From Bacteroides sp. (lineage in GTDB: Bacteria; Bacteroidota; Bacteroidia; Bacteroidales; Muribaculaceae), in the NCBI GenBank assembly GCA_014801865.1, contig JAAVDH010000007.1:106661-164009 (forward strand): DNA of 57,349 nucleotides, given 5' to 3'. The position numbers were made by a program, and so were the translations under genes. The notes under the pieces are model-generated. The model searched no databases. It was not told where the DNA came from and saw nothing but the letters and a program-made list of their open reading frames with translations. This document shows positions 12,872 to 31,074 of the stretch, in pieces (the stretch's first letter is position 1; every line of letters begins with the position of its first letter).

Positions 12872-13058
12872 TTACTTTTTAATAATACTTAAGTTGGCGA
12901 GATAACCCCTCCCCAACAGGATGGAGCCTTATCCCGCACTGTCATAACGTGTGCCCGCACAGGAATATTTTATTCACGTGCGACAGAGCAGACCGTGAGA
13001 CAGATGACAATGAGGTAACTATTTAACATTGAGGCTGGGATAATTAAGATTTTTTATG
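12872..13058. other. Intergenic region upstream of the nuo-atp operon
   Basis: The gene-free stretch runs to 13213. Its left part (12872-13058) shows no ORF, RNA gene or repeat that I can support. The right part holds the operon promoter and a leader hairpin, listed separately. The transporter gene on the left is divergent and must also have its promoter here, but I see no clear match. Confidence 0.5.
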
Positions 13059-13066
13059 TACATTTG
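13059..13066 (+). promoter_or_regulatory. -7 promoter element of the nuo-atp operon
   Basis: TACATTTG matches TAnnTTTG exactly; the transcript should start around 13071-13073. The sequence 20 bp upstream is a poor -33 box, so an activator may contribute. It is the only clear promoter seen in front of the 17-kb gene block. Confidence 0.65.
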
Positions 13067-13073
13067 CACTCAA

Positions 13074-13114
13074 AATGCGGACCGGACAGCCAAACACTGT
13101 CTGTGGCCCGCATT
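13074..13114 (+). promoter_or_regulatory. 5'-terminal leader hairpin of the nuo-atp mRNA
   Basis: AATGCGG (13074-13080) pairs with CCGCATT (13108-13114). Inside, CGGACAG (13083-13089) pairs with CTGTCTG (13097-13103) with one G-U pair, around a 7-nt loop. It would fold at the very 5' end of the transcript, about 100 nt before nuoA. Such 5' hairpins commonly protect mRNA from end-dependent decay; that role is inferred. Confidence 0.5.
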
Positions 13115-13213
13115 GTGTGGTGATGTACCATGAGGAGCTACCGTATGACACGGTCACTTCATACAGGGAGTTACCCGAACTTAAGTTGCAAATATAAAAC
13201 GGCAATTAACTAT

Positions 13214-13588
13214 ATGATTATGACATCATTAGCGATTCAAAACTCCACGCTTGCCATCGTGGCTGCGCTCACAGGCATCTGCCTTGTAGCGCTTGCACTT
13301 TGGCTGGCCGGGCTCATTTCTCCCCGGTCATTCAACCCCCAGAAGGGCGAGGCTTACGAATGCGGTATTCCTACTCGTGGCCGCAGTATGACTCAGTTTA
13401 AGGTTGGCTATTATCTGTTTGCCATCCTCTTCCTGATGTTCGACGTAGAATGTGTGTTCCTCTTCCCCTGGGCCGTGAGAGTTAAAGAACTGGGAGGCGC
13501 CGGCCTTCTCAGTATAGCTATTTTCTTTTGCATCTTAGTGCTGGGTCTCATCTATGCCTGGCGGAAAGGAGCCCTCGAATGGAAGTAA
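13214..13588 (+). CDS. nuoA: NADH-quinone oxidoreductase subunit A
   Basis: A 124-residue membrane subunit of complex I with three transmembrane segments and the conserved loop GEAYECGIPTRGRSMTQFKVGYY at the quinone-site interface. An in-frame ATG exists at 13130, but those 28 extra residues are polar and unlike NuoA; ATG 13214 gives the normal length. A second ATG at 13220 is also possible. It is the first gene of the nuo-atp block. Its last 10 bases overlap nuoB, which suggests translational coupling. Confidence 0.93.
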   Translation: MIMTSLAIQNSTLAIVAALTGICLVALALWLAGLISPRSFNPQKGEAYECGIPTRGRSMTQFKVGYYLFAILFLMFDVECVFLFPWAVRVKELGGAGLLSIAIFFCILVLGLIYAWRKGALEWK

Positions 13589-14181
13589 CAACAAAGAGCA
13601 TGCCCTATGAGGCGTGGAAAGACAACGAATACATTGAAAAGCTCGTAAAGGAGCTTCAGGATAACGGCACCAACGTAGTGGTAGGGTCGCTTGACAAGCT
13701 TATCAACTGGGGACGCTCAAACTCTATCTGGCCCCTGACCTTTGCCACCAGCTGCTGCGGCATCGAATTCGTTAGCCTCGGCGCCGCCCGTTTCGACATG
13801 GCCCGTTTCGGATGGGAAGTAGCGCGCTCGTCGCCCCGTCAGGCCGACTTCATCATGGTGGCCGGTACCATCGTACACCGCATGGCTCCCGTGTTGCGCC
13901 GACTCTACGACCAGCTTGCCGAGCCTAAATATGTGATAGCCTGCGGAGCCTGCGCTGTCAGCGGAGGTCCCTTCAAGAAGTCTTACCACGTAGTGATGGG
14001 ATGCGATCAGATTATCCCCGTCGACGTATATCTTCCCGGCTGTCCTCCCCGCCCCGAAGCCATGATATACTCCATCATGCAGCTCTCGCGCAAGATGAAA
14101 GTAGAACGCTTCTTCGGAGTGGTCAACCGCAAGGAAAAGCAAGAGGATTTTCTTAAAGCACATCCCATAAGCGAGTGCTAA
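13579..14181 (+). CDS. nuoB: NADH-quinone oxidoreductase subunit B
   Basis: A 200-residue peripheral-arm subunit that carries iron-sulfur cluster N2, the last electron carrier before quinone. The four ligands are C59 and C60 (TSCCGIE), C125 (GACAVSGG) and C155 (GCPPRPE), the same pattern and spacing as in characterised NuoB proteins. The start at 13579 lies inside the end of nuoA; longer in-frame starts would only add residues read from the nuoA sequence in another frame. An 89-bp gap with no feature separates it from nuoCD. Confidence 0.95.
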   Translation: MEVTTKSMPYEAWKDNEYIEKLVKELQDNGTNVVVGSLDKLINWGRSNSIWPLTFATSCCGIEFVSLGAARFDMARFGWEVARSSPRQADFIMVAGTIVHRMAPVLRRLYDQLAEPKYVIACGACAVSGGPFKKSYHVVMGCDQIIPVDVYLPGCPPRPEAMIYSIMQLSRKMKVERFFGVVNRKEKQEDFLKAHPISEC

Positions 14182-14270
14182 GAAGAACGGAATCCGGCTC
14201 TTACCTATCTACACTGACTTGAGACTAACCAACGCATTACCACCTTTCCCCCATATACGCCTCACATCAC

Positions 14271-15899
14271 ATGGCTGACATCAAGGAAAAAATATCACGG
14301 CTCTTTCCCGAAGCCACTTTTGAAGATGGTGAAACCCTGCTGGTGACCATCCCCGATGCCAAGTGGCACGAAATGGCCAAAACCCTCCGTGACGATGAAG
14401 ACCTGAAGTTTGACTTCCTGGTAACCATCGTCGGCATGGATTGGGTAGAAACCCTCGGAGCGATATATTATCTCACCTCCACCACTCATAACACCCACAT
14501 ATCCGTGAAGGTGACCACCACCGACCGCGTAAACCCCATGCTCCACTCTGTGGCCGACCTCTGGGCCATAGCCACAATCTTCGAGCGCGAGGTATACGAC
14601 TTCTTCGGCATCATCTTCATCAATAACCCCGATATGCGTCGTCTGTTCCTGAGCATCGACTGGAAGGGATTCCCCCTGCGCAAGGATTATGACGCTTCAC
14701 CCGAGACCAATCCCGTTCCTACCGATAATGAACGTCAGAGCGACTTCACTGATACTTATGTGGAACTTCCCGACGGCAAAATCGAGAAACGTCAGGAACG
14801 TGTCTTCCAGGAAGATGACTTTGTAGTCAACATCGGACCTCAGCACCCCGCCACTCACGGTGTGCTCCGTTTCCGCACCGCAGTCGACGGTGAGACCATC
14901 AAGAAGATTGACGTCTACATGGGCTACATCCACCGTGGTATCGAGAAAATATGCGAGCAGCTCACATATCCCCAGACGCTCCACTTCATGGACCGTATGG
15001 ACTATTTCTCGGCTCACCCCTATCACCACTGCCTGTGCATGACCATCGAGCAGGCCGCCGGCATAGAAATCAGCCGCCGCGCTCAAGTCATCCGTGTGCT
15101 TATGGACGAGCTCTCACGCATAGCCTCACACTGCCTCTTCATCGGCACCTACTGCATGGACCTTGGTGCCACCACCATGCTCTTCTACACTCTGCGTGTA
15201 CGCGAGCAGATACTTGACATCATGGAGCGCACCTGCGGTGCCCGCATGACATTCAACTACGAGTGCATCGGCGGCGTAATGCAGGACCTCGACGTAAACT
15301 TCGTCAAGGACGTGAAGGAGCTCCTTGCAGTGCTCCCCGCAAACATCAAGGAATACAACAAGATCTTCACCGGCAACGTCATAGCCAAGAACCGTCTGGA
15401 AGGTGTAGGCGTACTCTCAAACGAAGATGCCCGCTCATGGTCGATAACGGGCCCCTCAGGCCGTGCCTCAGGCTGGGCATGCGATGTGCGTAAGACCGAT
15501 CCCTACAGCATCTACGGCGAACTCGATTTTAAGGAAATCATACGCCACGAAGGTGACTCCATGGCCCGCTTCAAGGTGCGCATGGAGGAGATGGAGCAGA
15601 GCGCCCATATCATCGAGCAGCTCATCGATAATATCCCCGAAGGAGAAATCTGTGTAAAGGTGCCCAAAGTGCTCAAGCTGCCTAAGGGTCACTGGTTCCG
15701 CACCGTCGAAGGCTGTCGCGGCACATTTGGCGTATACCTCGAGAGCGACGGCACTGTCAATCCCTACCGTCTGAAACTCGTACCCCCGTGTCTGCCTCTG
15801 GCTGCTGTGGTTGACCACATCACCCGTGGAGAAAAAATCGCCGACCTCATCACCATCGGAGGCTCGATGGACTACATCGTGCCTGACATGGACCGATAA
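14271..15899 (+). CDS. nuoCD: Fused NADH-quinone oxidoreductase subunits C and D
   Basis: A 542-residue fusion. The NuoC part (about 1-150) includes the FEREVYDFFGI motif. The NuoD part (about 165-542) begins DDFVVNIGPQHPATHGVLRF, with the quinone-pocket His in HPATHG, and ends MDYIVPDMDR. NuoD forms much of the quinone-binding cavity next to cluster N2. NuoCD fusions are known in several bacterial groups, including Bacteroidota with an 11-subunit complex. All signature stretches are intact. The next gene, nuoH, follows after 75 bp. Confidence 0.95.
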   Translation: MADIKEKISRLFPEATFEDGETLLVTIPDAKWHEMAKTLRDDEDLKFDFLVTIVGMDWVETLGAIYYLTSTTHNTHISVKVTTTDRVNPMLHSVADLWAIATIFEREVYDFFGIIFINNPDMRRLFLSIDWKGFPLRKDYDASPETNPVPTDNERQSDFTDTYVELPDGKIEKRQERVFQEDDFVVNIGPQHPATHGVLRFRTAVDGETIKKIDVYMGYIHRGIEKICEQLTYPQTLHFMDRMDYFSAHPYHHCLCMTIEQAAGIEISRRAQVIRVLMDELSRIASHCLFIGTYCMDLGATTMLFYTLRVREQILDIMERTCGARMTFNYECIGGVMQDLDVNFVKDVKELLAVLPANIKEYNKIFTGNVIAKNRLEGVGVLSNEDARSWSITGPSGRASGWACDVRKTDPYSIYGELDFKEIIRHEGDSMARFKVRMEEMEQSAHIIEQLIDNIPEGEICVKVPKVLKLPKGHWFRTVEGCRGTFGVYLESDGTVNPYRLKLVPPCLPLAAVVDHITRGEKIADLITIGGSMDYIVPDMDR

Positions 15900-15974
15900 G
15901 ACTCTCTTAACCGCTCTCCTACTAAGTAAGCAAAGCCAATCATTCAACATCACTTCAGCTAAAGCAACACAATC

Positions 15975-17051
15975 ATGTTTGATTTCTCAGCAGTGACCAC
16001 CTGGATTCACGATTTTCTGAGTTCGTTTCTGCCCGGATGGCTCACAGTCACCGCAGAGTGTGTACTCATCGGTGTGTGCCTGCTTCTGGCCTATACCGTA
16101 CTGGCCCTCTTCTACATCTACTACGAGCGTAAGGTGTGTGCCTTCTTCCAGTGTCGTATCGGTCCTAACCGCGTAGGCCCTCTCGGTCTGCTCCAGAGCG
16201 TGGCCGACGCCATAAAGATGCTCATCAAGGAGCTTATCTCACTCAACCACATCGACAAATTCTTATTTGCCCTGGCACCCTATCTGGTGATCCTTGCCTC
16301 CATGCTCGCCTTTGCCGTACTACCCTGGGGTAATGGCTTGCAGATCATTGACTTCAATATTGGCATCTTCTTCCTGATAGCCGTATCGTCAATCGGAGTG
16401 CTCGGCATACTTCTCGCCGGATGGTCGTCAAACAACAAGTTTACACTCATCGGCGCTCTTCGTTCAGGCGCACAGATGGTCAGCTACGAGCTTTCGATAG
16501 GTCTGTCAGTGCTCACCATGGTATGTTTCGCCGGCACAATGTCGGTAGGCGGCATTGTGGAAGCACAGCGTGACCTGTGGTTTATCGTGTCAGGCCACAT
16601 TCCTGCCATCATAGCCTTCATCATCTACCTCATAGCAGGTACGGCGGAGACCAACCGTGGCCCGTTTGACCTTCCCGAGGCAGAAAGTGAGCTTACTGCC
16701 GGTTACCACACCGAGTACTCAGGTATCCACTTCGGCTTCTTCTATCTGGCCGAGTACCTCAACCTCTTCATCGTGTCGGGTGTTGCCACCCTGCTCTTCT
16801 TCGGCGGATGGATGCCCCTCCATATCCCCGGTTGGGAAGGCTTCAACACCATCATGGACTACATACCTTCGGTACTTTGGTTCATCGGTAAGGCTATCGC
16901 CATCTCATTCATCATAATATGGTTTAAGTGGACATTCCCCCGTCTGCGAATTGACCAGATGCTGGCACTGGAGTGGAAATACCTGCTCCCCATCAATCTC
17001 TGCAATCTCGTGCTGATGGTGCTCATCATCGTATACGGCATTCATCTTTAA
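15975..17051 (+). CDS. nuoH: NADH-quinone oxidoreductase subunit H
   Basis: A 358-residue inner-membrane subunit with about eight transmembrane segments that connects the quinone cavity to the proton-pumping arm. Conserved cytosolic loops are present: [19 protein letters not shown] and [20 protein letters not shown], the latter with the acidic residues of the quinone channel. In most genomes nuoI follows directly. Here an 82-bp gap leads into atpD, and nuoI comes seven kilobases later. Confidence 0.95.
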
Positions 17052-17094
17052 ACCATCACCCGCTCTCTTCTCGCTTCTCAGACATCTGACTTAA

Positions 17095-18639
<1,545 letters not shown>

Positions 18640-18717
18640 AAGCCTATCCCCTCATCCCGAGGTATTATTATCCTCCACTCCAATCTCATCAAACACTCAC
18701 CACGATAAATATACATC

Positions 18718-18954
18718 ATGACACTAAAAGTGATTTCGGCCGAGGACATACTCTTTGAGGGTCAGGTAAGTTCCGTGACACTTCCCGGCGCTGCCGGAGC
18801 GTTCACAGTGCTCGCCAACCACGCCTCACTGATTTCTACACTCACCCCGGGCTCTATAGTCTACACCGCCGACGGCGGTCAGAAGGGCGAGATACCTCTT
18901 CAGGGAGGTATCGTGGATGTTGACAGCAACATAGTGTCGGTATGCATATACTAA
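18718..18954 (+). CDS. atpC: F1Fo ATP synthase subunit epsilon, beta-sandwich domain only
   Basis: A 78-residue protein that matches only the N-terminal beta-sandwich of epsilon (MTLKVISAEDILFEG to DVDSNIVSVCIY). The C-terminal pair of helices that inhibits ATP hydrolysis in longer epsilon subunits (usual total 130-140 residues) is absent, and the next gene starts 20 bp later, so it is not a frameshift product. Short epsilon forms occur in Bacteroidota. The rotor-stator contact role should be kept, but not the epsilon brake. Confidence 0.9.
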   Translation: MTLKVISAEDILFEGQVSSVTLPGAAGAFTVLANHASLISTLTPGSIVYTADGGQKGEIPLQGGIVDVDSNIVSVCIY

Positions 18955-18974
18955 TCCCCGAAGCAACCACTTCA

Positions 18975-20120
18975 ATGAAGAAATCCATCCTAAACCGACT
19001 CATCGGACTGCTCGTGGCCATCCTCATGGCTCCGACAGCCTTTGCAGCCGTTTCAGAACAGGCTGAGGAGACCAAAGACTCCGGCCTGGGCTTTGACACC
19101 AAAGAGGTGATCTTCGAGCATCTTGGCGACAGATATGGCTGGGAAGTGCCCTTCAATCACCACAAGAGCATCCCTCTGCCCATCATAGTGTTTGCCTCCG
19201 ACGGCATGCACTGCTTCTCATCGGAGCGTGTGGCCCACGGACATGAATATGACGACAACGGCACTATCTTCCGCATAGCACCCAAGGGTAGCAAATATGC
19301 AGGTAAGGTAGTGGAAATAAAAGATGGCGAAGAGATCCGCCCCTTTGACATCTCGATAACCAAAAACGTATGTGCCATATTCATCACTATGATACTGGTG
19401 ATATGGAGCATACTCGCCGTGGCCCGCTGGCACAAACAGGGTACCAACAAAGCTCCCCGCGGCTATGTGGGAGCCATGGAATCGCTCATTACATTTATCT
19501 ACGACAGTGTAATCAAACCTACTCTCAAGGAGCAGGCTCCGAGATTCGCCCCGTATCTCCTTACAGTGTTCTTCTTCATTCTGTTCATGAACCTGCTGGG
19601 ACTCATCGTAGTCTTCCCCGGTGGAGCCAATCTGACAGGTAATATAGCCGTGACTCTGGTGCTGGCGATATTTACATTCCTCTTCACGAACATCACCCGA
19701 AGCAAGCATTACTGGAAGGAAATCTTCTGGCCCGATGTACCCTGGTGGCTCAAGGTGCCCATACCTATCATGCCGGTCATTGAGCTGTTCAGCGCCCTGA
19801 CCAAACCTGCAGCGCTTACCATACGTCTGTTCGCAAACATGATGGGTGGCCACATTATCGTTATAGTGCTCACACTGCTGATATTCATCTTCGCCACGAT
19901 GGGCACAGCCGTAGTTACCGGCACCGCCATAGTATCAGTAGCCTTCTCAGTGTTCATGCTCGTACTTGACTGTCTTGTGAGTCTCATTCAGGCCTATGTG
20001 TTTACGATGCTCTCGACCATCTTCATAGCTACAGGTCATGAAAAAGGTCATCACGAAGCTCACGATACCCACGCTGATCACGACAACTCAGCCCAACAGG
20101 CACAGACAGCTCACGCATAA
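18975..20120 (+). CDS. atpB: F1Fo ATP synthase subunit a, with N-terminal extension
   Basis: A 381-residue stator subunit that forms the proton half-channels. The essential Arg is R284 in LTIRLFANMMGGH. The N-terminus has a signal-peptide-like segment (MKKSILNRLIGLLVAILMAP) and an extra polar domain of about 110 residues before the first channel helix, long compared with the usual 250-270 residues but seen in Bacteroidota. The C-terminus is a His-rich tail (HEKGHHEAHDTHADHD). The frame is open to an ATG at 18942, which would overlap atpC; ATG 18975 places the signal peptide at the N-terminus and is preferred. No atpI-like gene lies between atpC and atpB. Confidence 0.93.
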   Translation: MKKSILNRLIGLLVAILMAPTAFAAVSEQAEETKDSGLGFDTKEVIFEHLGDRYGWEVPFNHHKSIPLPIIVFASDGMHCFSSERVAHGHEYDDNGTIFRIAPKGSKYAGKVVEIKDGEEIRPFDISITKNVCAIFITMILVIWSILAVARWHKQGTNKAPRGYVGAMESLITFIYDSVIKPTLKEQAPRFAPYLLTVFFFILFMNLLGLIVVFPGGANLTGNIAVTLVLAIFTFLFTNITRSKHYWKEIFWPDVPWWLKVPIPIMPVIELFSALTKPAALTIRLFANMMGGHIIVIVLTLLIFIFATMGTAVVTGTAIVSVAFSVFMLVLDCLVSLIQAYVFTMLSTIFIATGHEKGHHEAHDTHADHDNSAQQAQTAHA

Positions 20121-20204
20121 CGACTCTACTACTCTTCTCATCCAATAACAATTACGAAAAAACAAAATCAAATAATAAACTAAATCTCTAAAACCCCGAC
20201 TATT

Positions 20205-20450
20205 ATGTTAGCAATGATTTTAGCAGCAATCGAAGGTCTTCTTGGTATTGGCGCATGCTTCGGCGCAAGTTTTGCCGCAATCGGCGCAGGCCTCGGTATT
20301 GGCAAAATTGGTGGTGCAGCCATGGAAGCTATTGCCCGTCAGCCCGAAGCCGCAGGTGACATCCGAAGCAACATGATCGTGATTGCCGCCCTTATAGAGG
20401 GTGTGGCACTCTTCGCTGTTGTTGTCTGCCTTCTTGCACTTTTCGTTTAA
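20205..20450 (+). CDS. atpE: F1Fo ATP synthase subunit c
   Basis: An 81-residue hairpin of two glycine/alanine-rich helices joined by the ARQPEA polar loop; it forms the rotor ring. The ion-carrying carboxylate is E65 in ALIEGVALF. The residues that make sodium-binding rings are not present: the Gln of helix 1 is replaced by Ile (GAGLGIGKI), and the residue after the Glu is Gly rather than Ser. Proton specificity is therefore expected. An 84-bp AT-rich gap precedes it, which may help its higher translation. Confidence 0.96.
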   Translation: MLAMILAAIEGLLGIGACFGASFAAIGAGLGIGKIGGAAMEAIARQPEAAGDIRSNMIVIAALIEGVALFAVVVCLLALFV

Positions 20451-20558
20451 TCACTGCAGTACACGCCGATCTGTCGGCCAAGCCCTATGGCGCAGCCGAC
20501 AGACGGTACGGTAAACATACCTGCTAAGTCCATACAAAAAATCCATAAACACCCGTAA

Positions 20559-21065
20559 ATGGAATTATTCACACCCGACACCGGCTTGATGATCTGGATG
20601 TTCATTGCATTCATCATCCTCTTCTTTATCCTTTGGAAGTGGGGATGGCCTGCAATCATTCAGGGAGTAAACAGCCGTGCCGACCTCATAGACAAGGGTG
20701 TCGAATACGCTCAGAATGCTAAAGAGCAGCTCGACAACGCCCGCGCCGAGGCCGACAAATATATAGCCGACGCCCGTCGCCAACAGGCCGACATGCTGCG
20801 CGAAGCCGACAAGATGAAGAGTCAGATCATCGAAGAGGCACGTAACGCCGCTCAGCAGGAAGCCCAGAAGGTAATGGACGCAGCCAAGGTGTCAATAGAG
20901 CAGGAGCGTAAGCAGGCCGAACTTCAGTTCCGTAACGAAGTGAGCGCATTCGCCCTGGACATTGCCACCAAGGTGGTGCGTAACCAGATGAAAGATCAGA
21001 AAGCACAGGCTCAGCTCGTCAACACTCTGCTCGACGACATGGAGAAACAGAACTCAAAGAACTAA
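20559..21065 (+). CDS. atpF: F1Fo ATP synthase subunit b
   Basis: A 168-residue peripheral stalk subunit: one N-terminal membrane helix (GLMIWMFIAFIILFFILWKW) followed by a long charged coiled coil rich in Ala, Glu, Gln and Lys. Only one b-type gene is present, so the stalk should be a homodimer. It follows atpE after 108 bp and precedes atpH, the normal order. Confidence 0.94.
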   Translation: MELFTPDTGLMIWMFIAFIILFFILWKWGWPAIIQGVNSRADLIDKGVEYAQNAKEQLDNARAEADKYIADARRQQADMLREADKMKSQIIEEARNAAQQEAQKVMDAAKVSIEQERKQAELQFRNEVSAFALDIATKVVRNQMKDQKAQAQLVNTLLDDMEKQNSKN

Positions 21066-21107
21066 CCCTCCACGCAACCCTCCCACAATTCAAACGCGAC
21101 AAACCCT

Positions 21108-21653
21108 ATGAACGAAGGCCTCATACCTCGACGCTATGCAAAGGCGCTCTATAAATTCGCTCTCGAAAAAGGCGAAGATAAGAAGGTGTACCAGCTCATG
21201 ACTACACTGGCGCAAACCTTCGCACAGACACCCTCTCTGCAGAACGCCGTGGCCAATCCCTTTGTGAGCACTGAAGACAAAACCTCGTTGCTCATAACCG
21301 CCGCGGGAGCTGAAAACGGTGACGAGATATTCACCGCCTTCATCAAACTGCTTGAAGAGAACCGCCGAATAGACATGGCTCAGAATATAGCCGTGGACTA
21401 CGCCGCCCTCTACCGCAAGGAAAACAATATACACAGAGTGACGGTCACATCCGCCGCTCCGCTTGATCCTGCCGAAGAGGAGCGACTGCGTAAACTCATT
21501 ACCGCCCACCTCAACGGAGGCACAATGGAGTACTACTCGGCTGTCAATCCCGACCTCATAGGCGGCTTTACCGTCAACATCGACAATGAGATGCTTGACG
21601 CTTCAATAGCCAATGAGCTCAAGCAGCTGCGTCTGAATCTCATAAGCCACTGA
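21108..21653 (+). CDS. atpH: F1Fo ATP synthase subunit delta
   Basis: A 181-residue subunit that links the b stalk to the top of the alpha/beta hexamer (OSCP homologue). It has the N-terminal helical domain (LIPRRYAKALYKFALEKG) and the C-terminal region with DLIGGFTVNIDNEMLDASI, both typical. Length is normal. The 124-bp gap before atpA holds nothing recognisable. Confidence 0.93.
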   Translation: MNEGLIPRRYAKALYKFALEKGEDKKVYQLMTTLAQTFAQTPSLQNAVANPFVSTEDKTSLLITAAGAENGDEIFTAFIKLLEENRRIDMAQNIAVDYAALYRKENNIHRVTVTSAAPLDPAEEERLRKLITAHLNGGTMEYYSAVNPDLIGGFTVNIDNEMLDASIANELKQLRLNLISH

Positions 21654-21777
21654 TAAGTTAACCGAGCATCTCCTCTTTCCGGCTCAGCATTACGAAGTCA
21701 TATAGGCTATACATAACACAATCCCTCTCTCTCCAATATCACTCATCCCATTACGACCTCTCAAATTCTCACTATAA

Positions 21778-23355
21778 ATGATTAATCCCAGCGAGATTTC
21801 GGAAGTATTAAAACAACAGCTCGAAAACGTCAACTCCAAGGTGTCGTTTGCCGAGACCGGTACCGTGCTTGAAGTCGGTGACGGAGTGGCACACGTATAC
21901 GGCCTGGACAATGTGCGGGCCAACGAGCTCGTCGAGTTTGAGAACGGCGTCAAAGGCGTGGCCCTCAACCTCGAGGAGAGCAACGTAGGCGTCATTCTGC
22001 TCAACGATGTTGACAAGGTGACCGAAAACATGTCAGTAAGACGCACCGGCGAGATTGCCTCTATCCCCGTAGGAGAAGGACTCCTGGGACGAGTAATCAA
22101 CGTACTGGGCGAACCAATCGACGGCAAAGGCCCCATCAGCGGCGAACTCATACGTCTGCCCCTAGAGCGTAAGGCTCCCGGCGTTATCTTCCGCCAGCCC
22201 GTTAAGCAGCCCCTGCAGACCGGTCTTAAGGCCGTTGACTCCATGGTGCCCATCGGCCGCGGCCAGCGTGAGCTCATCATCGGCGACCGCCAGATAGGTA
22301 AGACCGCCATCGCCATCGACACCATCATCAACCAGCGCAAGGAATTCGAGGCCGGAAAGCCCGTATACTGCATCTATGTGGCCATCGGACAGAAGGCTTC
22401 ATCAGTAGCCGCCATCGTAGAGACCCTCCGCCAGCACGGCGCACTTGACTATACCGTAGTAGTCAGCGCCACCGCTTCTGATTCAGCCTCAATGCGCTAC
22501 TATGCTCCCTTTGCCGGCGTAGCCATCGGCGAATATTTCCGCGATTCAGGCCGCGACGCTCTCATCGTCTATGATGACCTGTCGAAGCAGGCCGTAGCCT
22601 ACCGTGAGATTTCGCTTATCCTCAAGCGCCCCTCAGGGCGTGAGGCATATCCCGGCGATATCTTCTATCTCCACTCACGTCTGCTCGAGCGCGCCGCCAA
22701 GATTATTGACAATCAGGAGGTGGCCGAGAAGATGAATGACCTCCCCGAGGCTCTGCGCCCGATGGTAAAGGGTGGTGGTTCACTCACAGCCCTCCCCATC
22801 ATCGAAACTCAGGCCGGCGACGTTTCGGCATACATTCCCACCAACGTGATTTCTATCACCGACGGACAGATCTTCCTCGAAAGCGCCCTCTTCAACCGCG
22901 GCATTCGTCCTGCGATTAACGTAGGTATTTCAGTGTCACGTGTGGGTGGTAATGCACAGATCAAGTCCATGAAGAAGGTGGCCGGCACACTGAAGATTGA
23001 CCAGGCTCAGTTCCGTGAGCTCGAATCATTCACCAAGTTCGGTGGCGATATCGACCCCGTGACCGCCCGCGTAATCGACAAGGGCCGTAAGAACGAGCGC
23101 CTGCTCATTCAGCCCCAGTACCGCCCCATGGCAGTAGAAGACGAAGTAGCCGTAATCTTCTGCGGCACCAAGGGTCTGCTCCAGAACGTGCCCCTCGACA
23201 AGGTGGCCGAGTTTGAGCACCTCTTCCTCCAGCTTCTCCACGCCAAACATCAGGACGACGTACTCGAACCCATCCGTCAGGGTCAGCTCACCGACGACGT
23301 GACCAAGAAACTCACCGACGCCGCAGCTGAGATAGCAACCCGCTATCAATCTTAA
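21778..23355 (+). CDS. atpA: F1Fo ATP synthase subunit alpha
   Basis: The 525-residue non-catalytic nucleotide-binding F1 subunit. The Walker A loop is GDRQIGKT (residues 169-176). The Arg finger region [19 protein letters not shown] and the [20 protein letters not shown] segment are canonical. The C-terminal helical domain is complete. A stem-loop lies in the 154-bp gap before atpG. Confidence 0.96.
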
Positions 23356-23399
23356 ATTAAGAAAAAGCTCCATCAAACCCTAACTCCATACGCAGCGAC

Positions 23400-23431
23400 C
23401 GGGGCGTACTCCAATAAAACAGAGCGCCCCG
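23400..23431 (+). other. Intra-operon stem-loop between atpA and atpG
   Basis: CGGGGCG (23400-23406) pairs with CGCCCCG (23425-23431) around an 18-nt loop. There is no following T-run, so it is not a good terminator. It could set relative mRNA stability of the upstream and downstream cistrons, or be a processing site (inference). Confidence 0.45.
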
Positions 23432-23509
23432 ACGCAGCGAAGGATGGTGAAGGATAAGGCGCGATAACCCCATACTTAACCAACGCAGCTACAGACACAA
23501 CCATAACAA

Positions 23510-24391
23510 ATGGCAACACTACGCGAACTCAAAGGCCGAATCGGCTCCGTGGCATCGTCAGAAAAAATCACCGGCGCCATGAAGATGATATCCTCGGCCA
23601 AGATGCACAAGGCAGAGACAGGCCTGAAACGCCTTCTTCCCTTCCGCACCCAGGTGGAGTCCATCATCGGCAATCTACTGTCAGCCGATGCCGAATTCAC
23701 CTCGCCCCTGACTCAGGAGCGCGACGTGAAGCGACTGGGCATTGTGGTGTTCGGATCTGACGACGGTCTCTGTGGCGCCTACAACGTCAACATCTTCAAA
23801 CAACTGTTGGCCCACATCGCCGACTTCCGCAAGGAACTCGGCTCAGAGGTGGAAATCACCCTCATACCTGTAGGTTCAAAGATAGCCAAGGCCGCCGGCA
23901 AGCTCCGCGACGCCAATATAAAGGTGGACACCATAGACAATGTCGACTCAAAGACTACCGGCGACGGAGTGAAGTTCTTCACGGACACACTCACCGCCCG
24001 ATTCCTCGACGGCACATACGACCGTATCGACTATCTCTACATGAACTTCCAGAGCGTGTCGCGTCAGCGTCTCCGTCTTGAGCAACTTCTGCCAGTAGTT
24101 CAGTCGACCTTTGCCGACAACGGAGTAAAGGAGTCATGCCGCCCCTACATCTTCGAGCCTGACCCGGCTACGATATTCAACTCCGTACTCCCCATGTTCC
24201 TTCTGGCGGTGATGCAGGAAGTGTTTACCGAAAACCGCGCATCGGAACAGGCGGCGAGAGTCATGGCAATGCAGAGCGCCAATGACAACGCCAAGAAACT
24301 CCTCGAACAACTTCAACTCGAATTCAACAAGCTGCGTCAGCAGAGCATCACAACTGAGCTGCTCGACATACTGGGCGGTCAGGTGCGATGA
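23510..24391 (+). CDS. atpG: F1Fo ATP synthase subunit gamma
   Basis: The 293-residue central shaft of F1. The N-terminal coiled-coil strand (ATLRELKGRIGSVASSEKITGAMK) and the C-terminal strand (ARVMAMQSANDNAKKLLEQL to SITTELLDILGG) are the conserved antiparallel coiled coil; the Rossmann-like middle domain is in place (GSDDGLCGAYN). It is the last atp gene, followed after 92 bp by nuoI. Confidence 0.95.
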   Translation: MATLRELKGRIGSVASSEKITGAMKMISSAKMHKAETGLKRLLPFRTQVESIIGNLLSADAEFTSPLTQERDVKRLGIVVFGSDDGLCGAYNVNIFKQLLAHIADFRKELGSEVEITLIPVGSKIAKAAGKLRDANIKVDTIDNVDSKTTGDGVKFFTDTLTARFLDGTYDRIDYLYMNFQSVSRQRLRLEQLLPVVQSTFADNGVKESCRPYIFEPDPATIFNSVLPMFLLAVMQEVFTENRASEQAARVMAMQSANDNAKKLLEQLQLEFNKLRQQSITTELLDILGGQVR

Positions 24392-24483
24392 CCTCCACTC
24401 ACCTCTCTCTCTGCGACACCAGCTTTCGATATACTCTCGCATAATAAATAACAACAATAACTATAATCACTTAACACATTTCT

Positions 24484-25119
24484 ATGGGTAGTGTAAAAGA
24501 TTATTTTTCGTCATTAGGGAGCGGCCTTGTAAGCCTCATCAAGGGCATGCAGGTGACCGGTAAGGAATTTGTCACCCCTAAGATTACCGAAAGATATCCG
24601 GAGGACCGCGACCACATGCACGTGTCCCCGCGCTTCCGCGCCATACTTCGCCTGAAGTATGATGCAGAAGGCAACCACAAGTGCATTGCCTGCGGCATCT
24701 GCGAACGCAACTGTCCCAACGGCACCATCTCACTCACCACTAAGATGGTGGATACCGCCGACGGCAAGAAAAAGCGCAAACTTGACAAATACTCCTACGA
24801 CCTGGGCAGTTGCACGTTCTGTCAGCTGTGTGTGTCGTCATGTCCGCAGGACGCACTGGAGTTCAACAATGACTTCGAGCAGGCTGTCTTCACCCGCGAA
24901 AAGCTCGTGAAGAAGCTCAACTATCTGCCTGAAAAGGAAGAGCCGGCACCATCGCCCGAGGAGCTGGCACGCATCCAGGCTGAACGTGAAGCCAAGATAG
25001 CTGCCGCAAAGGCTGCCGCCGAGGCTAAGAAAGCCGCAGCAGCTCAGGCCAAGGCTATTGACCAAGCCGAGGAAAAAGCCGGTGAAAAACCCGCCGAAGA
25101 CCTCCCCAACGCTGAATAA
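24484..25119 (+). CDS. nuoI: NADH-quinone oxidoreductase subunit I (two 4Fe-4S clusters)
   Basis: A 211-residue ferredoxin-like subunit with two CxxCxxCxxxC motifs: CIACGICERNCP (first cluster half) and CTFCQLCVSSCP. It passes electrons towards NuoB. With no NuoEFG in the window, it is likely where an unknown electron input subunit or a reduced ferredoxin docks, as proposed for 11-subunit complexes. The last 50 residues are an Ala/Lys/Glu-rich charged tail not found in short NuoI proteins. It resumes the nuo genes after the atp insertion. Confidence 0.94.
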   Translation: MGSVKDYFSSLGSGLVSLIKGMQVTGKEFVTPKITERYPEDRDHMHVSPRFRAILRLKYDAEGNHKCIACGICERNCPNGTISLTTKMVDTADGKKKRKLDKYSYDLGSCTFCQLCVSSCPQDALEFNNDFEQAVFTREKLVKKLNYLPEKEEPAPSPEELARIQAEREAKIAAAKAAAEAKKAAAAQAKAIDQAEEKAGEKPAEDLPNAE

Positions 25120-25150
25120 TAAATAATCACTTACGACCCATAAAATTGCA

Positions 25151-25666
25151 ATGGAAACAGTAGGAAGTTTCATCATGTACCTGATAATCGCTCTGTCGAT
25201 TGTCGTATTCTCGGTACTGACTGTCACCACGCGCAAGATTCTTCGCGCAGCCACCTACCTGCTTTTCACCCTATTTGCAACAGCAGCCCTTTACTTCAAG
25301 CTCGACTACGAATTTCTGGGCGCGGTGCAGATTGCGGTGTATGCCGGCGGCATCGTGGTGCTCTTCGTGTTTGCCATACTCCTTACGTCGCATCCCGGTG
25401 ACAACAGCGAGCAACTGGCATCCAAAAAACGTATTTTAGGCCTTCTGGGAGGTCTGCTCACATTCATCGTAGCGGGCTACGCTCTCGTAAGCCGCTGCGC
25501 CAACGTGTGCACTACCCTCCCCGCCATGTCCAACCCCGACATGCACACCCTCGGTGAGCAGCTCATGGGCACCGGCGAAGCGCAGTATCTGCTCCCCTTC
25601 GAGGCCATCAGTGTGTTGTTACTCGCATGTATAATCGGCGGCGTTGTCGTGGCCCGCAAAAGATAA
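25151..25666 (+). CDS. nuoJ: NADH-quinone oxidoreductase subunit J
   Basis: A 171-residue membrane subunit with five hydrophobic helices. The conserved third helix (FLGAVQIAVYAGGIVVLFVFAILL) contains the pi-bulge region involved in coupling. The gap to nuoI is 31 bp and to nuoK 9 bp, so they are tightly coupled. Confidence 0.93.
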   Translation: METVGSFIMYLIIALSIVVFSVLTVTTRKILRAATYLLFTLFATAALYFKLDYEFLGAVQIAVYAGGIVVLFVFAILLTSHPGDNSEQLASKKRILGLLGGLLTFIVAGYALVSRCANVCTTLPAMSNPDMHTLGEQLMGTGEAQYLLPFEAISVLLLACIIGGVVVARKR

Positions 25667-25675
25667 TCTACAGTT

Positions 25676-25987
25676 ATGGAAATATCTATCATCTGGTATC
25701 TGGTGCCCGCCCTGGTAATGTTCTGCTGCGGAGTCTACGGATTCATCACACGCAAGAACATGATAGCTATGCTCATCTCGCTCGAGCTCATGCTTAATGC
25801 CGTGGATATCAACTTCGTGGTATTCAACCGCTACCTATTCCCCCATCAGCTTGAGGGCATGTTCTTCACATTGTTTGCCATCGCCATTGCCGCAGCAGAA
25901 ACTGCCGTTGCAATCGCCATCATCATCAATGTGTTCCGTGCAGCCAAGAATATTGATGTCACTGATCTCACTAAAATGAAATTTTAA
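25676..25987 (+). CDS. nuoK: NADH-quinone oxidoreductase subunit K
   Basis: A 103-residue subunit with three membrane helices. The conserved buried glutamates lie in MLISLELMLNAVDINF and AIAAAETAVAIAI, which form part of the proton relay in the membrane arm. Length is normal for the family. Confidence 0.94.
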   Translation: MEISIIWYLVPALVMFCCGVYGFITRKNMIAMLISLELMLNAVDINFVVFNRYLFPHQLEGMFFTLFAIAIAAAETAVAIAIIINVFRAAKNIDVTDLTKMKF

Positions 25988-25993
25988 ACTGCC

Positions 25994-27940
25994 ATGGACA
26001 TAACAATACCTCTGTTGATTCTGGCCATCCCCCTGTTCATGTTCCTTCTGCTGGGCATCGCAGGGTGCAAGATGTCCCATAAGCTTGCGGGCGTCCTTGG
26101 CGTCTGCGGGCTCGGCACAGTGCTGTGCCTGTCATACTACACAGCCTTCACTTACTTCTTCGGCGGCAATCCCGACTTCATCAACGAACTTGGTGAACGT
26201 CTGCAATACACCGTCTTCAACGTAACCTGGCTGCAGTTTACCGAACATCTGGTCATAAAGCTCGGATTCCTTCTTGACCCCATCTCGGCCATGATGCTTG
26301 TGGTTATCACCACTATTTCATTCCTGGTTCACCTCTACTCACTTGAGTATATGGAGGGTGAGAAGGGCTTCCAGCGTTACTACGCTTTCCTGTCGCTCTT
26401 CACCTTCTCGATGCTCGGACTGGTAGTGGCTACCAACATTTTCCAGATGTATATCTTCTGGGAGCTCGTAGGTGCCTCATCATTCCTGCTCATCGGATTC
26501 TACTATCAGCGTCCCTCGGCTGTGAGCGCCTCTAAGAAGGCATTCATCGTCACCCGCTTCGCTGACCTCGGATTCCTGCTGGGTATCCTCGTACTGTCGT
26601 TCTACACTCAGACATTCGACTTCGTGGAACTGACCTCCAACCCCTCTGCCGTACTGGCCTCAACAGCCGGTGCTACCTTCATGGGTGCCTCAGTGCTCAC
26701 CTGGGCTCTGGTGCTCATCTACATCGGCGGTATGGGTAAGTCAGCCATGATGCCCCTCCACATCTGGCTCCCCGATGCCATGGAAGGCCCGACTCCCGTA
26801 TCGGCTCTTATCCACGCCGCTACCATGGTTGTGGCCGGGGTATACCTCGTGGCACGTCTCTTCAGCGTATACCAGCTTGAATACTCAGCCGTGATGTTCA
26901 TCACCGTAGTAGGTGCCGTCACAGCATTCTATGCAGCTGCCGTAGCCTGCACACAGATAGATATCAAGCGCGTGCTCGCCTTCTCAACTATCTCTCAGAT
27001 TGCCTTCATGATGGTAGGTCTCGGTGTGGCAGGTCTGTCATTCCACGCTACTCACGACATTCACTATGCCGGACTCGGTTACATGGCCTCCATGTTCCAC
27101 CTCTTTACCCACGCCCTCTTCAAGGCTCTGCTCTTCATGGGCGCCGGCGCACTGATTCACGCCGTACACTCCAATGACTACACCGCCATGGGTGGCCTGC
27201 GCAAGTACATGCCCATCACCAACATCACCTTCCTCATAGGCTGTCTGGCCATTGCGGGCATACCTCCCTTCTCAGGCTTCTTCTCAAAGGACGAGATACT
27301 CACCGCCTGCTACGACCTTCACTGGTTCTGGGGTGTATGGATGAGCATGGTAGCCGGTCTCACCGCCTTCTACATGTTCCGTCTCTACTTCCTCATCTTC
27401 TACTGGGACGAACCCCACTATCACCACAAACCTCATGATTGCGGATGGGAAATGTCATTCCCCCTGGTATTCCTTGCCGCCGTATCATGCGTGGCCGGAT
27501 TCATCCCCTTCGGAGAACTAGTGACATACAACCGTCTCCCCTATCACATCCATCTTGACTGGACTGTGGCCGGAGTAAGTATCGCCATAGCTGTCATCGC
27601 CATTCTCTTCGCTGCCAAGCTTTATATGCGCAAGAACGACGTTCCCGAGCGTATGGCCCATTCATGCTACTGGCTTTGGAAAGCGGCTCACCGTCGCTTC
27701 TACTGGGACGAGATTTATCTCTTCATCACCCATAAGATTATCTTCGGCTGCATTTGTCGCCCCATCGCATGGTTTGACCGCCACGTTATCGACGGCTCAA
27801 TGGACGGTCTGGCCTACGTGGCCAACAAGGCTTCCTACGCCATCCGTGGACTTCAGAGCGGCAACATACAGATGTATGTATGGTGGTATCTGCTGGGTGC
27901 CCTCCTGCTGGGTGCCGTCACCGGCATCTGTATGATGTAA
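25994..27940 (+). CDS. nuoL: NADH-quinone oxidoreductase subunit L (antiporter-like)
   Basis: The 648-residue distal proton-pumping subunit with about 16 membrane helices. Conserved segments include FWELVGASSFLLIGFYY, the GKSAMMPLHIWLPDAMEGPTPVSALIHAATMV channel and the long amphipathic C-terminal region. The gap to nuoK is 6 bp. All charged residues expected in the broken helices are visible in the conserved stretches. Confidence 0.95.
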   Translation: MDITIPLLILAIPLFMFLLLGIAGCKMSHKLAGVLGVCGLGTVLCLSYYTAFTYFFGGNPDFINELGERLQYTVFNVTWLQFTEHLVIKLGFLLDPISAMMLVVITTISFLVHLYSLEYMEGEKGFQRYYAFLSLFTFSMLGLVVATNIFQMYIFWELVGASSFLLIGFYYQRPSAVSASKKAFIVTRFADLGFLLGILVLSFYTQTFDFVELTSNPSAVLASTAGATFMGASVLTWALVLIYIGGMGKSAMMPLHIWLPDAMEGPTPVSALIHAATMVVAGVYLVARLFSVYQLEYSAVMFITVVGAVTAFYAAAVACTQIDIKRVLAFSTISQIAFMMVGLGVAGLSFHATHDIHYAGLGYMASMFHLFTHALFKALLFMGAGALIHAVHSNDYTAMGGLRKYMPITNITFLIGCLAIAGIPPFSGFFSKDEILTACYDLHWFWGVWMSMVAGLTAFYMFRLYFLIFYWDEPHYHHKPHDCGWEMSFPLVFLAAVSCVAGFIPFGELVTYNRLPYHIHLDWTVAGVSIAIAVIAILFAAKLYMRKNDVPERMAHSCYWLWKAAHRRFYWDEIYLFITHKIIFGCICRPIAWFDRHVIDGSMDGLAYVANKASYAIRGLQSGNIQMYVWWYLLGALLLGAVTGICMM

Positions 27941-27990
27941 GCTTATTCACTCCAAGTAGCCAAAATCACACATTTCACAGTAATTTCACT

Positions 27991-29499
27991 ATGTTCTCCA
28001 ATATATTAATCTATTTCGTGGTGATACCCGTGCTGATGCTCGGGGGCCTCGCCATCTGTCGCAACATACGACAGATCCGCGCCGTGGCCGTCACCGGATC
28101 GCTGGCGCTGCTGGCGCTGTCCATCTACCTTCTGGTCGACTATCTGGCACAGCGCGCCGCAGGTGCTACAGCGCCCATGCTCTACTGCGACTCATGGAGC
28201 TGGTTCACTCCGCTGCACATCAACCTCGCTGTCGGTGTCGACGGCATATCAGTGGCCATGCTCGTGCTCTCGGCCATCATACTCCTGACCGGCTCTTTCG
28301 CCTCATGGAAGATTGAGCCCTGCCCCAAGGACTTCTTCCTCTGGCTGGTGCTCCTTTCCACCGGAGTATTCGGATTCTTTATCTCGATTGACCTCTTCAC
28401 AATGTTCATGTTCTATGAGGTGGCTCTCATCCCGATGTATCTTCTCATCGGTATCTGGGGCTCGGGCAACAAGAACTACTCAGCCATGAAGCTCACTCTG
28501 ATGCTCATGGGTGGTTCAGCCTTCCTGATGCTCGGTCTCATAGGCATCTACTACCACTCTGCTTCAAACCCCGCCGACCTCACCTGGAACATCCTTGAGA
28601 TAGCCCGGAACGGAGCCATAGAAAAGGGCTGGCAGTACTTCCTTTTCCCCCTCACCTTTGTGGGATTCGGAGTACTGGGTGCCATGTTCCCCTTCCACAC
28701 ATGGAGCCCCGACGGTCACGCTTCAGCCCCCACAGCTGTATCGATGCTTCACGCCGGCGTACTCATGAAGCTCGGTGGCTACGGCTGCTTCCGTGTAGCC
28801 ATCTACCTGATGCCCGAAGCCGCCCATGACCTTGCCTGGATATTCCTTATCCTCACCGGTGTATCGGTAGTCTACGGAGCCTTCTCAGCCTGCGTACAGA
28901 ACGACCTCAAGTATATCAACGCTTACTCTTCAGTGAGCCACTGCGGTCTGGTACTCTTCGCTATCCTCATGCTCAACACCACCGCAATGACCGGTGCCAT
29001 CATGCAGATGCTCTCACACGGTCTGATGACAGCCCTCTTCTTCGCCCTCATCGGTATGATTTACGGACGTACTCACACCCGTGACATCCGTCTCATGGGT
29101 GGCCTTATGAAGATTATGCCTTTCCTGGCCGTATGCTACGTTATAGCCGGCATGGCCTCTTTAGGTCTGCCCGGTCTCAGCGGCTTCGTGGCCGAGATGA
29201 CCATCTTCGTAGGTTCGTTTGAGCACACCGACTTCTTCCACCGTGCGTTCACCGTGGCCGCCTGCTGCTCTATCGTAATCACCGCAGTATACATTCTGCG
29301 CGTGGTAGGCAAGCTGCTCTTCGGTCCCGTCTACGACGAACACCATCTGAGCCTCACCGACGCCACATGGTGGGAACGCACCTCAACAGTGACCCTTATC
29401 ATCTGTGTGGCCGCCATCGGTTGCTTCCCCAACTTCTTCAGCGACCTGATTAAGTTTACCTTCACCAAGGATATCTTCGCAGTGATAGGAATGAATTAA
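27991..29499 (+). CDS. nuoM: NADH-quinone oxidoreductase subunit M (antiporter-like)
   Basis: A 502-residue membrane subunit with about 14 helices. The Glu of MFYEVALIPMYLLIG and the Lys-containing channel MFPFHTWSPDGHASAPTAVS are intact. An open frame reaches back to 27880 inside nuoL, but those 37 residues are polar and unlike NuoM; ATG 27991 gives a proper first membrane helix (FSNILIYFVVIPVLML). Confidence 0.94.
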   Translation: MFSNILIYFVVIPVLMLGGLAICRNIRQIRAVAVTGSLALLALSIYLLVDYLAQRAAGATAPMLYCDSWSWFTPLHINLAVGVDGISVAMLVLSAIILLTGSFASWKIEPCPKDFFLWLVLLSTGVFGFFISIDLFTMFMFYEVALIPMYLLIGIWGSGNKNYSAMKLTLMLMGGSAFLMLGLIGIYYHSASNPADLTWNILEIARNGAIEKGWQYFLFPLTFVGFGVLGAMFPFHTWSPDGHASAPTAVSMLHAGVLMKLGGYGCFRVAIYLMPEAAHDLAWIFLILTGVSVVYGAFSACVQNDLKYINAYSSVSHCGLVLFAILMLNTTAMTGAIMQMLSHGLMTALFFALIGMIYGRTHTRDIRLMGGLMKIMPFLAVCYVIAGMASLGLPGLSGFVAEMTIFVGSFEHTDFFHRAFTVAACCSIVITAVYILRVVGKLLFGPVYDEHHLSLTDATWWERTSTVTLIICVAAIGCFPNFFSDLIKFTFTKDIFAVIGMN

Positions 29500-29520
29500 C
29501 GGATAATACGATCAACGAAA

Positions 29521-30969
29521 ATGGACTACTCTCAGTTTTTAGCTATGAAGCAGGAAATCGGTCTTCTGATCGTGTTTGTCCTGGTCTTCCTCTATGACAC
29601 ATTCATGCCCCGCAAAGCGCAGGGAGCCATCGGAGGTGTTTCCGTAGTACTCTTCGGACTCTTCACCGCCGCATCATTCCTGTGTGGATGCACCAAGGAG
29701 GTCACCGAAGCCTTCTCAGGCATGTACTACACTGACGGCGCCGTATGTGCTATCAAGAACATACTCAATATCGGCGTATTCATCGTGCTCATACAGTCAA
29801 TCAAGTGGGCCGACAGCGATATGCAGATTATGCGTCGCGGCGAGTTCTACGAACTTCTGCTCCTTACCCTCTTTGGCATGTATCTCATGATTTCAGGCCG
29901 TCACTTCCTGCTCTTCGTCATCGGTCTTGAGACCGCCTCACTGCCCCTCGCAGCCATGGTGGCTTTCGACAAACACCGTTATGAGAGCCACGAAGCAGCC
30001 GTGAAATACATCCTCACAGCCGTATTCTCATCAGCCGTGTTCCTCATGGGTATCAGCTACGTGTATGGTCTCACCGGCTCGCTCTATTTCTCACAGATAG
30101 CCCGCGCCATCGCCTTTGAAGGCGGTGCGTCAGTAATGCTCATCGTAGCTCTGGCCTTCGTTATCGCCGGCATAGGCTTCAAGCTCTCGCTTGTACCTTT
30201 CCACCTCTGGACTGCCGACGTATATCAGGGTGCTCCCACCAACGTGACCTCTTATCTGTCGGTTATATCCAAGGGTGCAGCAGCCTTCGCATTCCTCGCA
30301 GTGCTTTGGCAGGCTTTTGGTCAGGTATATGCTCAGGCCTGGGAATGGATGCTCTACGCACTCATCATTCTCACCATCACCGTGGGCAACCTCTTCGCCA
30401 TGCGTCAGCGCAACATGAAGCGCTTCCTTGCCTTCTCATCTGTATCACAGGCCGGCTACATCATGCTTGGTATCATCGCCTTCAACGGCATGGGTGCCGC
30501 TGCCCTGATGTACTACATCCTCGTATACATCTTCTCCAACCTCGCCGCCTTCGGCGTGATAGGAGCTATCGAGAATGCCTGCGGCAAGGTACACATGGAG
30601 GATTATAACGGTCTCTACCGCACAAATCCCCGCCTGGCATTCACCATGATGCTCGCCATGTTCTCACTGGCCGGTATCCCCCCGTTTGCAGGATTCTTCT
30701 CGAAGTTCTTCATCTTCACCTCAGCCATCAACCAAGGTTCGGTTGCCATCTACGTGCTCGTGCTCATAGCTCTGATCAACACCATCATATCACTCTACTA
30801 CTATCTGCTGGTGGTGAAGGCTATGTTCATATCTACCGAACAGGGCGACGTGCCCACCTTCAAGAGCGCTTGCACCGAACGCATCGGCCTCTGGATTTGT
30901 GTTGCCGGTATCATCGGCCTCGGTATCGTAAGCTACTTCTACAACTCACTGCTTACGCTCAATCCCTAA
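29521..30969 (+). CDS. nuoN: NADH-quinone oxidoreductase subunit N (antiporter-like)
   Basis: A 482-residue, 14-helix proton-pumping subunit and the last gene of the block. Conserved features are IGLETASLPLAAMVAF, FKLSLVPFHLWTADVYQGAP and SLAGIPPFAGFFSKFFIF. It begins 21 bp after nuoM and is followed by a strong terminator within 27 bp. Confidence 0.95.
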   Translation: MDYSQFLAMKQEIGLLIVFVLVFLYDTFMPRKAQGAIGGVSVVLFGLFTAASFLCGCTKEVTEAFSGMYYTDGAVCAIKNILNIGVFIVLIQSIKWADSDMQIMRRGEFYELLLLTLFGMYLMISGRHFLLFVIGLETASLPLAAMVAFDKHRYESHEAAVKYILTAVFSSAVFLMGISYVYGLTGSLYFSQIARAIAFEGGASVMLIVALAFVIAGIGFKLSLVPFHLWTADVYQGAPTNVTSYLSVISKGAAAFAFLAVLWQAFGQVYAQAWEWMLYALIILTITVGNLFAMRQRNMKRFLAFSSVSQAGYIMLGIIAFNGMGAAALMYYILVYIFSNLAAFGVIGAIENACGKVHMEDYNGLYRTNPRLAFTMMLAMFSLAGIPPFAGFFSKFFIFTSAINQGSVAIYVLVLIALINTIISLYYYLLVVKAMFISTEQGDVPTFKSACTERIGLWICVAGIIGLGIVSYFYNSLLTLNP

Positions 30970-30995
30970 GTACCCATAACACTTCCCATACTCCA

Positions 30996-31030
30996 CGGAG
31001 CTGTGTCAATTGACACAGCTCCGTTTTTTT
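30996..31030 (+). terminator. Rho-independent terminator of the nuo-atp operon
   Basis: A perfect 28-nt palindrome (12-bp stem CGGAGCTGTGTC, AATT loop) followed by seven T (31024-31030). It is the clearest intrinsic terminator in the window. Its T-run also sits at the -33 position of the next promoter. Confidence 0.92.
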
Positions 31031-31047
31031 CACTACATTTTTTTCAC

Positions 31048-31055
31048 TACATTTG
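31048..31055 (+). promoter_or_regulatory. -7 promoter element of the thymidine kinase gene
   Basis: TACATTTG matches TAnnTTTG, 19 bp before the ATG at 31075. The sequence 20 bp upstream is TTTT, part of the preceding terminator. The expected leader is only about 12-15 nt. Confidence 0.65.
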
Positions 31056-31074
31056 CAGAGATAACCTGACACTT

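Follow-up and report, generated by a model that had tools for sequence, protein, structure and literature searches.

A stretch of 57,349 nucleotides from a Bacteroides sp. draft genome of the family Muribaculaceae (assembly GCA_014801865.1, contig JAAVDH010000007.1, positions 106,661 to 164,009 of the forward strand), hereafter called the window, carries all eight subunit genes of an F-type ATP synthase inside the gene cluster of respiratory complex I. On the plus strand of the window, nuoA-B-CD-H is followed by atpD-C-B-E-F-H-A-G and then by nuoI-J-K-L-M-N, with all 18 genes oriented in the same direction. We are fairly confident that this block is one polycistronic respiratory operon, into which an intact atpDCBEFHAG cassette moved once, between nuoH and nuoI, and which would be transcribed mainly from the nuoA promoter. 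In the history that we propose, the operon coded for an 11-subunit (headless) complex I, and the cassette would have been inserted into its short nuoH-nuoI gap, in the direction of transcription, in an ancestor shared by at least seven Bacteroidales families. From that time on, most transcription of the ATP synthase genes would have started at the promoter ahead of nuoA, the transcription unit would end at the terminator past nuoN, and the subunits of the proton pump and of the proton-driven ATP synthase would be made from one message, which may keep their expression balanced.

The subunit identities were obtained from family-model matches (NCBIfam/TIGR/PRK) of the window translations, and these confirmed the gene order that had been proposed in an earlier note on this DNA. 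A promoter box of the Bacteroides -7 type (TACATTTG, 13059..13066, consensus TAnnTTTG) precedes nuoA (13220..13588; NCBIfam NuoA models to 2.3e-28), for which the open reading frame (ORF) opens at 13130 and the likely start, judged by relatives, is 13220. This gene is followed by nuoB (13579..14181; PRK14816, 2e-108; ORF opening at 13528, likely start at 13579), a nuoCD fusion (14271..15899; NuoC and NuoD models), and nuoH (15975..17051; NuoH models to 1.7e-103), the final complex I gene ahead of the insert. The insert itself comprises atpD (F1 beta, 17134..18639; TIGR01039, 6.8e-232), atpC (F1 epsilon, short, 78 aa, 18718..18954; TIGR01216, 3.5e-17), atpB (F0 a, 18942..20120; TIGR01131, 3.9e-36), atpE (F0 c, 20205..20450; TIGR01260, 6.1e-18), atpF (F0 b, 20559..21065; TIGR01144, 1.4e-26), atpH (F1 delta, 21108..21653; TIGR01145, 1e-31), atpA (F1 alpha, 21778..23355; TIGR00962, 4.1e-226), and finally atpG (F1 gamma, 23510..24391; TIGR01146, 3.3e-71). 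Complex I resumes with nuoI (24484..25119; TIGR01971, 2.2e-30) and continues through nuoJ (25151..25666; NuoJ models to 3.9e-23), nuoK (25676..25987; NuoK models to 2.3e-30), nuoL (25994..27940; TIGR01974, 3.5e-166), nuoM (27991..29499; TIGR01972, 2.6e-121, matching from ORF residue 46; ORF opening at 27880, likely start at 27991), and nuoN (29521..30969; TIGR01770, 1.3e-107). The block is closed by an intrinsic terminator on the same strand (30995..31030), made of a 13-pair stem at 30995-31024 (8 G-C pairs) with a loop of 4, followed by TTTTTT.

The single promoter box in front and the strong terminator behind are thus as the earlier note had described them, and so is its limit on the intergenic distances, as the widest gap of the block is the 154 bp between atpA and atpG. 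The same note had seen no scar, transposase, or repeat at the junctions. In agreement with this, no repeats ≥ 14 bp (exact seed 11) were found in 16900-24700, a region covering both junctions, and no additional plus-strand ORF ≥ 150 aa interrupts the nuo/atp block, so that a mobile-element scar at the insert was rejected. A search for RNA elements in the leader and junctions returned no Rfam match at the gathering threshold in 12700-31500.

The genes nuoA, B, CD, H, I, J, K, L, M, and N are all present in their usual relative order, interrupted between nuoH and nuoI by the eight atp genes, and nuoE, nuoF, and nuoG are absent from the block, every gene of which was assigned to another subunit. 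The complex I of the window is therefore the 11-subunit (10-gene) headless form, a point that went unmentioned in the earlier note, whose description was otherwise accurate. A search aimed at NuoF only, and not at NuoE or NuoG genome-wide, gave no match in the window's own genome, which is 71% complete. Among 12 genomes of the same genus, five had a partial NuoF match (27-41 bits) and the other seven had none, with full-length matches present in other families. The suggestion of the earlier note that a single transcript would tie the level of the pump to that of the proton consumer is plausible, but the pump in question is a headless complex I, and the homologous complex of B. fragilis 638R was reported to have no NADH:quinone activity: this activity was not lost in a nuo deletion mutant, which was also unimpaired in mouse colonisation (PMC7002350). 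For a similar headless complex of Prevotella, a partnership with NQR and the ATP synthase has been discussed as a possibility (PMC6560451).

The nested arrangement is conserved throughout the Muribaculaceae genomes analysed. In the 80 nearest nuoH loci, which belong to records titled Muribaculaceae, Duncaniella, Paramuribaculum, etc., or bearing broader or doubtful labels, nuoH is followed by atpD in 79, and the remaining one (L083) stops within nuoH. The loci extend as far as atpG in 57 of the 80, and nuoI comes next in 56 of these; L061 shows no gene of the set past atpG. The nested loci include those of Duncaniella muris (L041) and Paramuribaculum intestinale (L018). A census was additionally made of 137 Muribaculaceae genomes (136 with ≥ 95% completeness and the window's own), all of which contain both NuoH and AtpG. 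The two genes lie on one contig and strand in 126 genomes, 5813-6847 bp apart (median 6039), which corresponds to the spacing of the nest. They are found on two contigs in the other 11, where the nuoH-atpD junction could be read in 11/11 and the atpG-nuoI junction in 10/11, the exception being G353, whose contig stops 165 bp past atpG. Single-contig genomes such as G275, G385, and G397 also show the nested arrangement. In G339 (L132, L150, L151), the break falls within atpF: each of the two contigs extends beyond it, and their atpF pieces share an overlap of about 18 codons, so the genome may be rearranged there or a contig may be in error.

In order to place this arrangement among other families, 294 Bacteroidales genomes (≥ 85% complete, except for the window's own) were sampled, and AtpG was detected in 256 of them at E ≤ 1e-10. 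NuoH was searched in 147 of these 256 genomes and in four further genomes of the same genus, and for outgroups its presence was defined as a match at E ≤ 1e-100. The nest was recovered in 20/20 genomes of six further families (f19, f102, f57, f25, f64, and f83), 14 of them gene by gene and six by spacing. In the outgroups, nuoI directly follows nuoH in all 53 genomes that have nuoH (16 + 37 genomes), with nuoH-nuoI gaps of -16 to 79 bp in the first 16. Separate atp loci were read in six outgroup genomes (f99, f27, f56, and f9), and there the genes follow the same D-C-B-E-F-H-A-G order.

FastTree phylogenies built from concatenated proteins, with 36 rows for Nuo and 29 rows for Atp, each separated nested from not-nested genomes, by a split of 21 vs. 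15 rows with support 1.0 for Nuo and of 22 vs. 7 rows with support 0.983 for Atp. As both trees divide the nested families from the others, one insertion of the whole, intact atp cassette would be the simplest history, though the nest may instead have a deeper origin and have been lost later. Family f99 is placed beside the nested clade in the Atp tree, but together with f21, f56, and f9 in the Nuo tree. Both genes occur on one contig in 9 of the 18 f99 genomes that have both, at distances from 17.6 kb to 4.1 Mb, and none is nested. Given the conflicting position of f99 in the two trees, we do not claim a step-by-step history in which proximity preceded nesting. A second, looser clustering of both systems was observed in G195 (family f93; L148:10388-17641, L149), where the tandem atp and nuo operons are separated by about 6 kb that contain NrfD-like, 4Fe-4S, and ferritin genes.

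The promoter footprint in Muribaculaceae points to nuoA as the main site of transcription initiation. The motif TAnnTTTG, known as the Bacteroides -7 consensus (PMC7366714, PMC12632263), was counted upstream of the likely start of each gene, and the expected numbers were derived from dinucleotide shuffles. It was found within 300 nt of nuoA in 71/71 usable loci (15.1 expected), and within 150 nt in 55/77. For atpD, a single locus out of 82 carries the motif within 300 nt, which is below the 9.0 expected by chance (also 1/82 within 150 nt), and for nuoI none of the 61 loci has it within 150 nt (1.4 expected). The gaps at the nuoH-atpD and atpG-nuoI junctions (medians 44 and 45 bp, minima 21 and 14 bp, respectively) are as short as the other gaps of the operon, and a strict scan for terminator-like hairpins found none at these junctions in 82 and 61 loci, respectively. 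The only other promoter type scanned, the E. coli-type sigma-70, was uninformative (16 sites vs. 16.8 expected).

The window originates from a draft assembly of 71% completeness divided into 46 contigs, a circumstance under which a misassembly or a chimeric bin might be suspected of having produced the nesting. The earlier note had named the gene order of relatives as the test of this suspicion, and as that order is kept in all 137 Muribaculaceae genomes and in single-contig genomes, hence in independent assemblies, misassembly is ruled out for practical purposes, with a residual probability that we regard as negligible. A more serious alternative accepts that the genes are contiguous but supposes that their expression is split by an internal promoter, situated at the 3' end of nuoH, at a junction, or at the end of atpG, in which case the nesting would be mostly positional. 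ATP synthase is usually required in quantity, which would speak for a promoter of its own. The nuo operon of B. fragilis, moreover, was reported to be poorly expressed in rich medium (PMC7002350). Several results of the motif counts also weigh against transcription from nuoA as the sole source. The box is more frequent than expected within 300 nt of nuoI (8/60 loci vs. 3.1) and within 250 nt of nuoL (14/59 vs. 4.8), in both cases within coding sequence, and this excess means that some species may have weak internal promoters. Enrichment of the nuoA box is not clear in the six other nested families (4/13 vs. 2.4 expected; 7/13 over a longer stretch, for which no expectation was computed) and the atpD box occurs there in 3/13 loci vs. 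2.0 expected, so that the promoter argument is confined to Muribaculaceae. In the aligned promoters a -33 box is not clear, and of the 15 nested loci that extend far enough past nuoN, the strict hairpin scan detects a site there in only six, which makes its silence at the junctions weaker evidence than it appears. Split expression is nevertheless opposed by the scarcity of the consensus box before atpD and by the short junction gaps, and we consider it improbable. The single transcript put forward in the earlier note thus keeps its support at nuoA, atpD, and the 150 nt before nuoI, and is qualified by the excess of boxes near nuoI and nuoL; as far as can be judged from the sequence, one operon read mainly from the nuoA promoter would still be the best description of the block.

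The persistence of the nest could also be due to linkage, regardless of co-expression: a headless complex I would be dispensable by itself, but deleting it would become costly with the ATP synthase genes lying within its operon. In line with such a lock-in, NuoH is kept in 157/157 nested genomes (137 Muribaculaceae and 20 from the other families), and outside the nested families it was matched in only 53 of the 123 AtpG-bearing genomes (24/43 + 29/80), G077 and G305 having partial NuoH genes beyond these 53. In f99, where the loci are separate, NuoH is missing in 19 of the 37 AtpG-bearing genomes (NuoH in 18/40 genomes, AtpG in 37/40). Furthermore, H5, the one S24-7 genome judged to be without complex I, is also without ATP synthase according to the published text (PMC4936053). 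These data suggest a protective effect of nesting against the loss of complex I. The nested families make up a single clade, however, and so amount to close to one evolutionary event, for which reason a Fisher test of retention overstates the evidence. Moreover, the f99 genomes without nuo have a different type of AtpG (29-33% vs. 38-49% identity) and may differ for other reasons. We therefore treat the lock-in as a possibility that falls short of an even chance, and one that is compatible with, not exclusive of, a single operon read from the nuoA promoter. Still somewhat less probable, in our opinion, is a combination of the two, in which nesting would be an evolutionary lock and an expression coupler at once: the only ATP synthase detected in the cell would rely on the promoter of the headless complex I operon, and complex I, elsewhere often lost, would thereby become almost impossible to lose in a clade that comprises at least seven families. 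If this were true, the headless complex I would be expressed and would form a proton circuit with the ATP synthase in these gut bacteria, unlike in B. fragilis. As a separate observation on f99, AtpG is 38-49% identical to that of the window in the nuo-bearing genomes and 29-33% identical in the 19 that have AtpG and no nuo; the type of ATP synthase goes along with complex I even in a family with separate loci.

The cassette of the window codes for the a, b, c, alpha, beta, gamma, delta, and epsilon subunits. When its c subunit was aligned to the sodium c-ring 1yce, Ile and Gly were found in place of Gln and Ser, which we take to be the sodium-binding residues of 1yce. The ATP synthase is thus likely to be proton-coupled, and the pump and the ATP synthase would then use the same coupling ion. 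The window's own draft genome (71% complete) yielded no other ATP synthase; the sole third match to the alpha/beta family contains a Rho RNA-binding domain and was rejected as being Rho factor. AtpC scored 62.6 bits against TIGR01216, under the cut-off of 67.25, and covers only model positions 2-76 of 130; with 78 aa, the protein corresponds to the N-terminal part of the family model and the usual C-terminal helices are missing. NuoI has a C-terminal tail of about 60 residues, rich in Ala, Lys, and Glu, beyond its two 4Fe-4S motifs, and in several relatives the matches end before this tail. Downstream of nuoN, a raw thymidine kinase ORF (31003-31719) opens within the terminator; the gene itself probably starts at the ATG at 31075.

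The Muribaculaceae are among the major bacteria of the gut. Should both complexes be controlled by a single promoter in this family, the ATP synthase would be switched off under the conditions that switch off nuo, and the headless complex I could not be treated as optional. The nested clade and the families with separate loci offer a natural comparison, both for the role of headless complex I and for the protection against gene loss that nesting may provide.

The nested arrangement itself is already known for Muribaculaceae since 2016, when Ormerod et al. described, for S24-7 ('Ca. Homeothermaceae', i.e., Muribaculaceae), a complex I locus into which the F-type ATP synthase is integrated and which codes for 11 of the 14 subunits, without NuoEFG (PMC4936053). 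That locus resembles the window in having the atp genes within complex I and in lacking NuoEFG; the text of the article on the locus, figures and supplements aside, describes neither the order of the genes nor the junctions, and contains no analysis of promoters, of the origin, or of further families. No further reports of the arrangement were found in the open-licence literature. New here are the wider range of families, the likely single origin, the promoter footprint and regulatory anatomy, and the finding that complex I is retained in all genomes where it encloses the ATP synthase. The nuo operon of B. fragilis 638R codes for the same 11-subunit headless complex I, and differs in that its ten locus tags, BF638R_0841-0850, are consecutive, a numbering that implies no atp genes inside (PMC7002350) and that is consistent with the statement of the earlier note that nuo and atp are separate loci in Bacteroides. 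Separate atpDCBEFHAG operons of other Bacteroidales, in turn, are identical in gene order to the cassette of the window, but in the genomes read they lie away from nuo or merely near it, and never inside.

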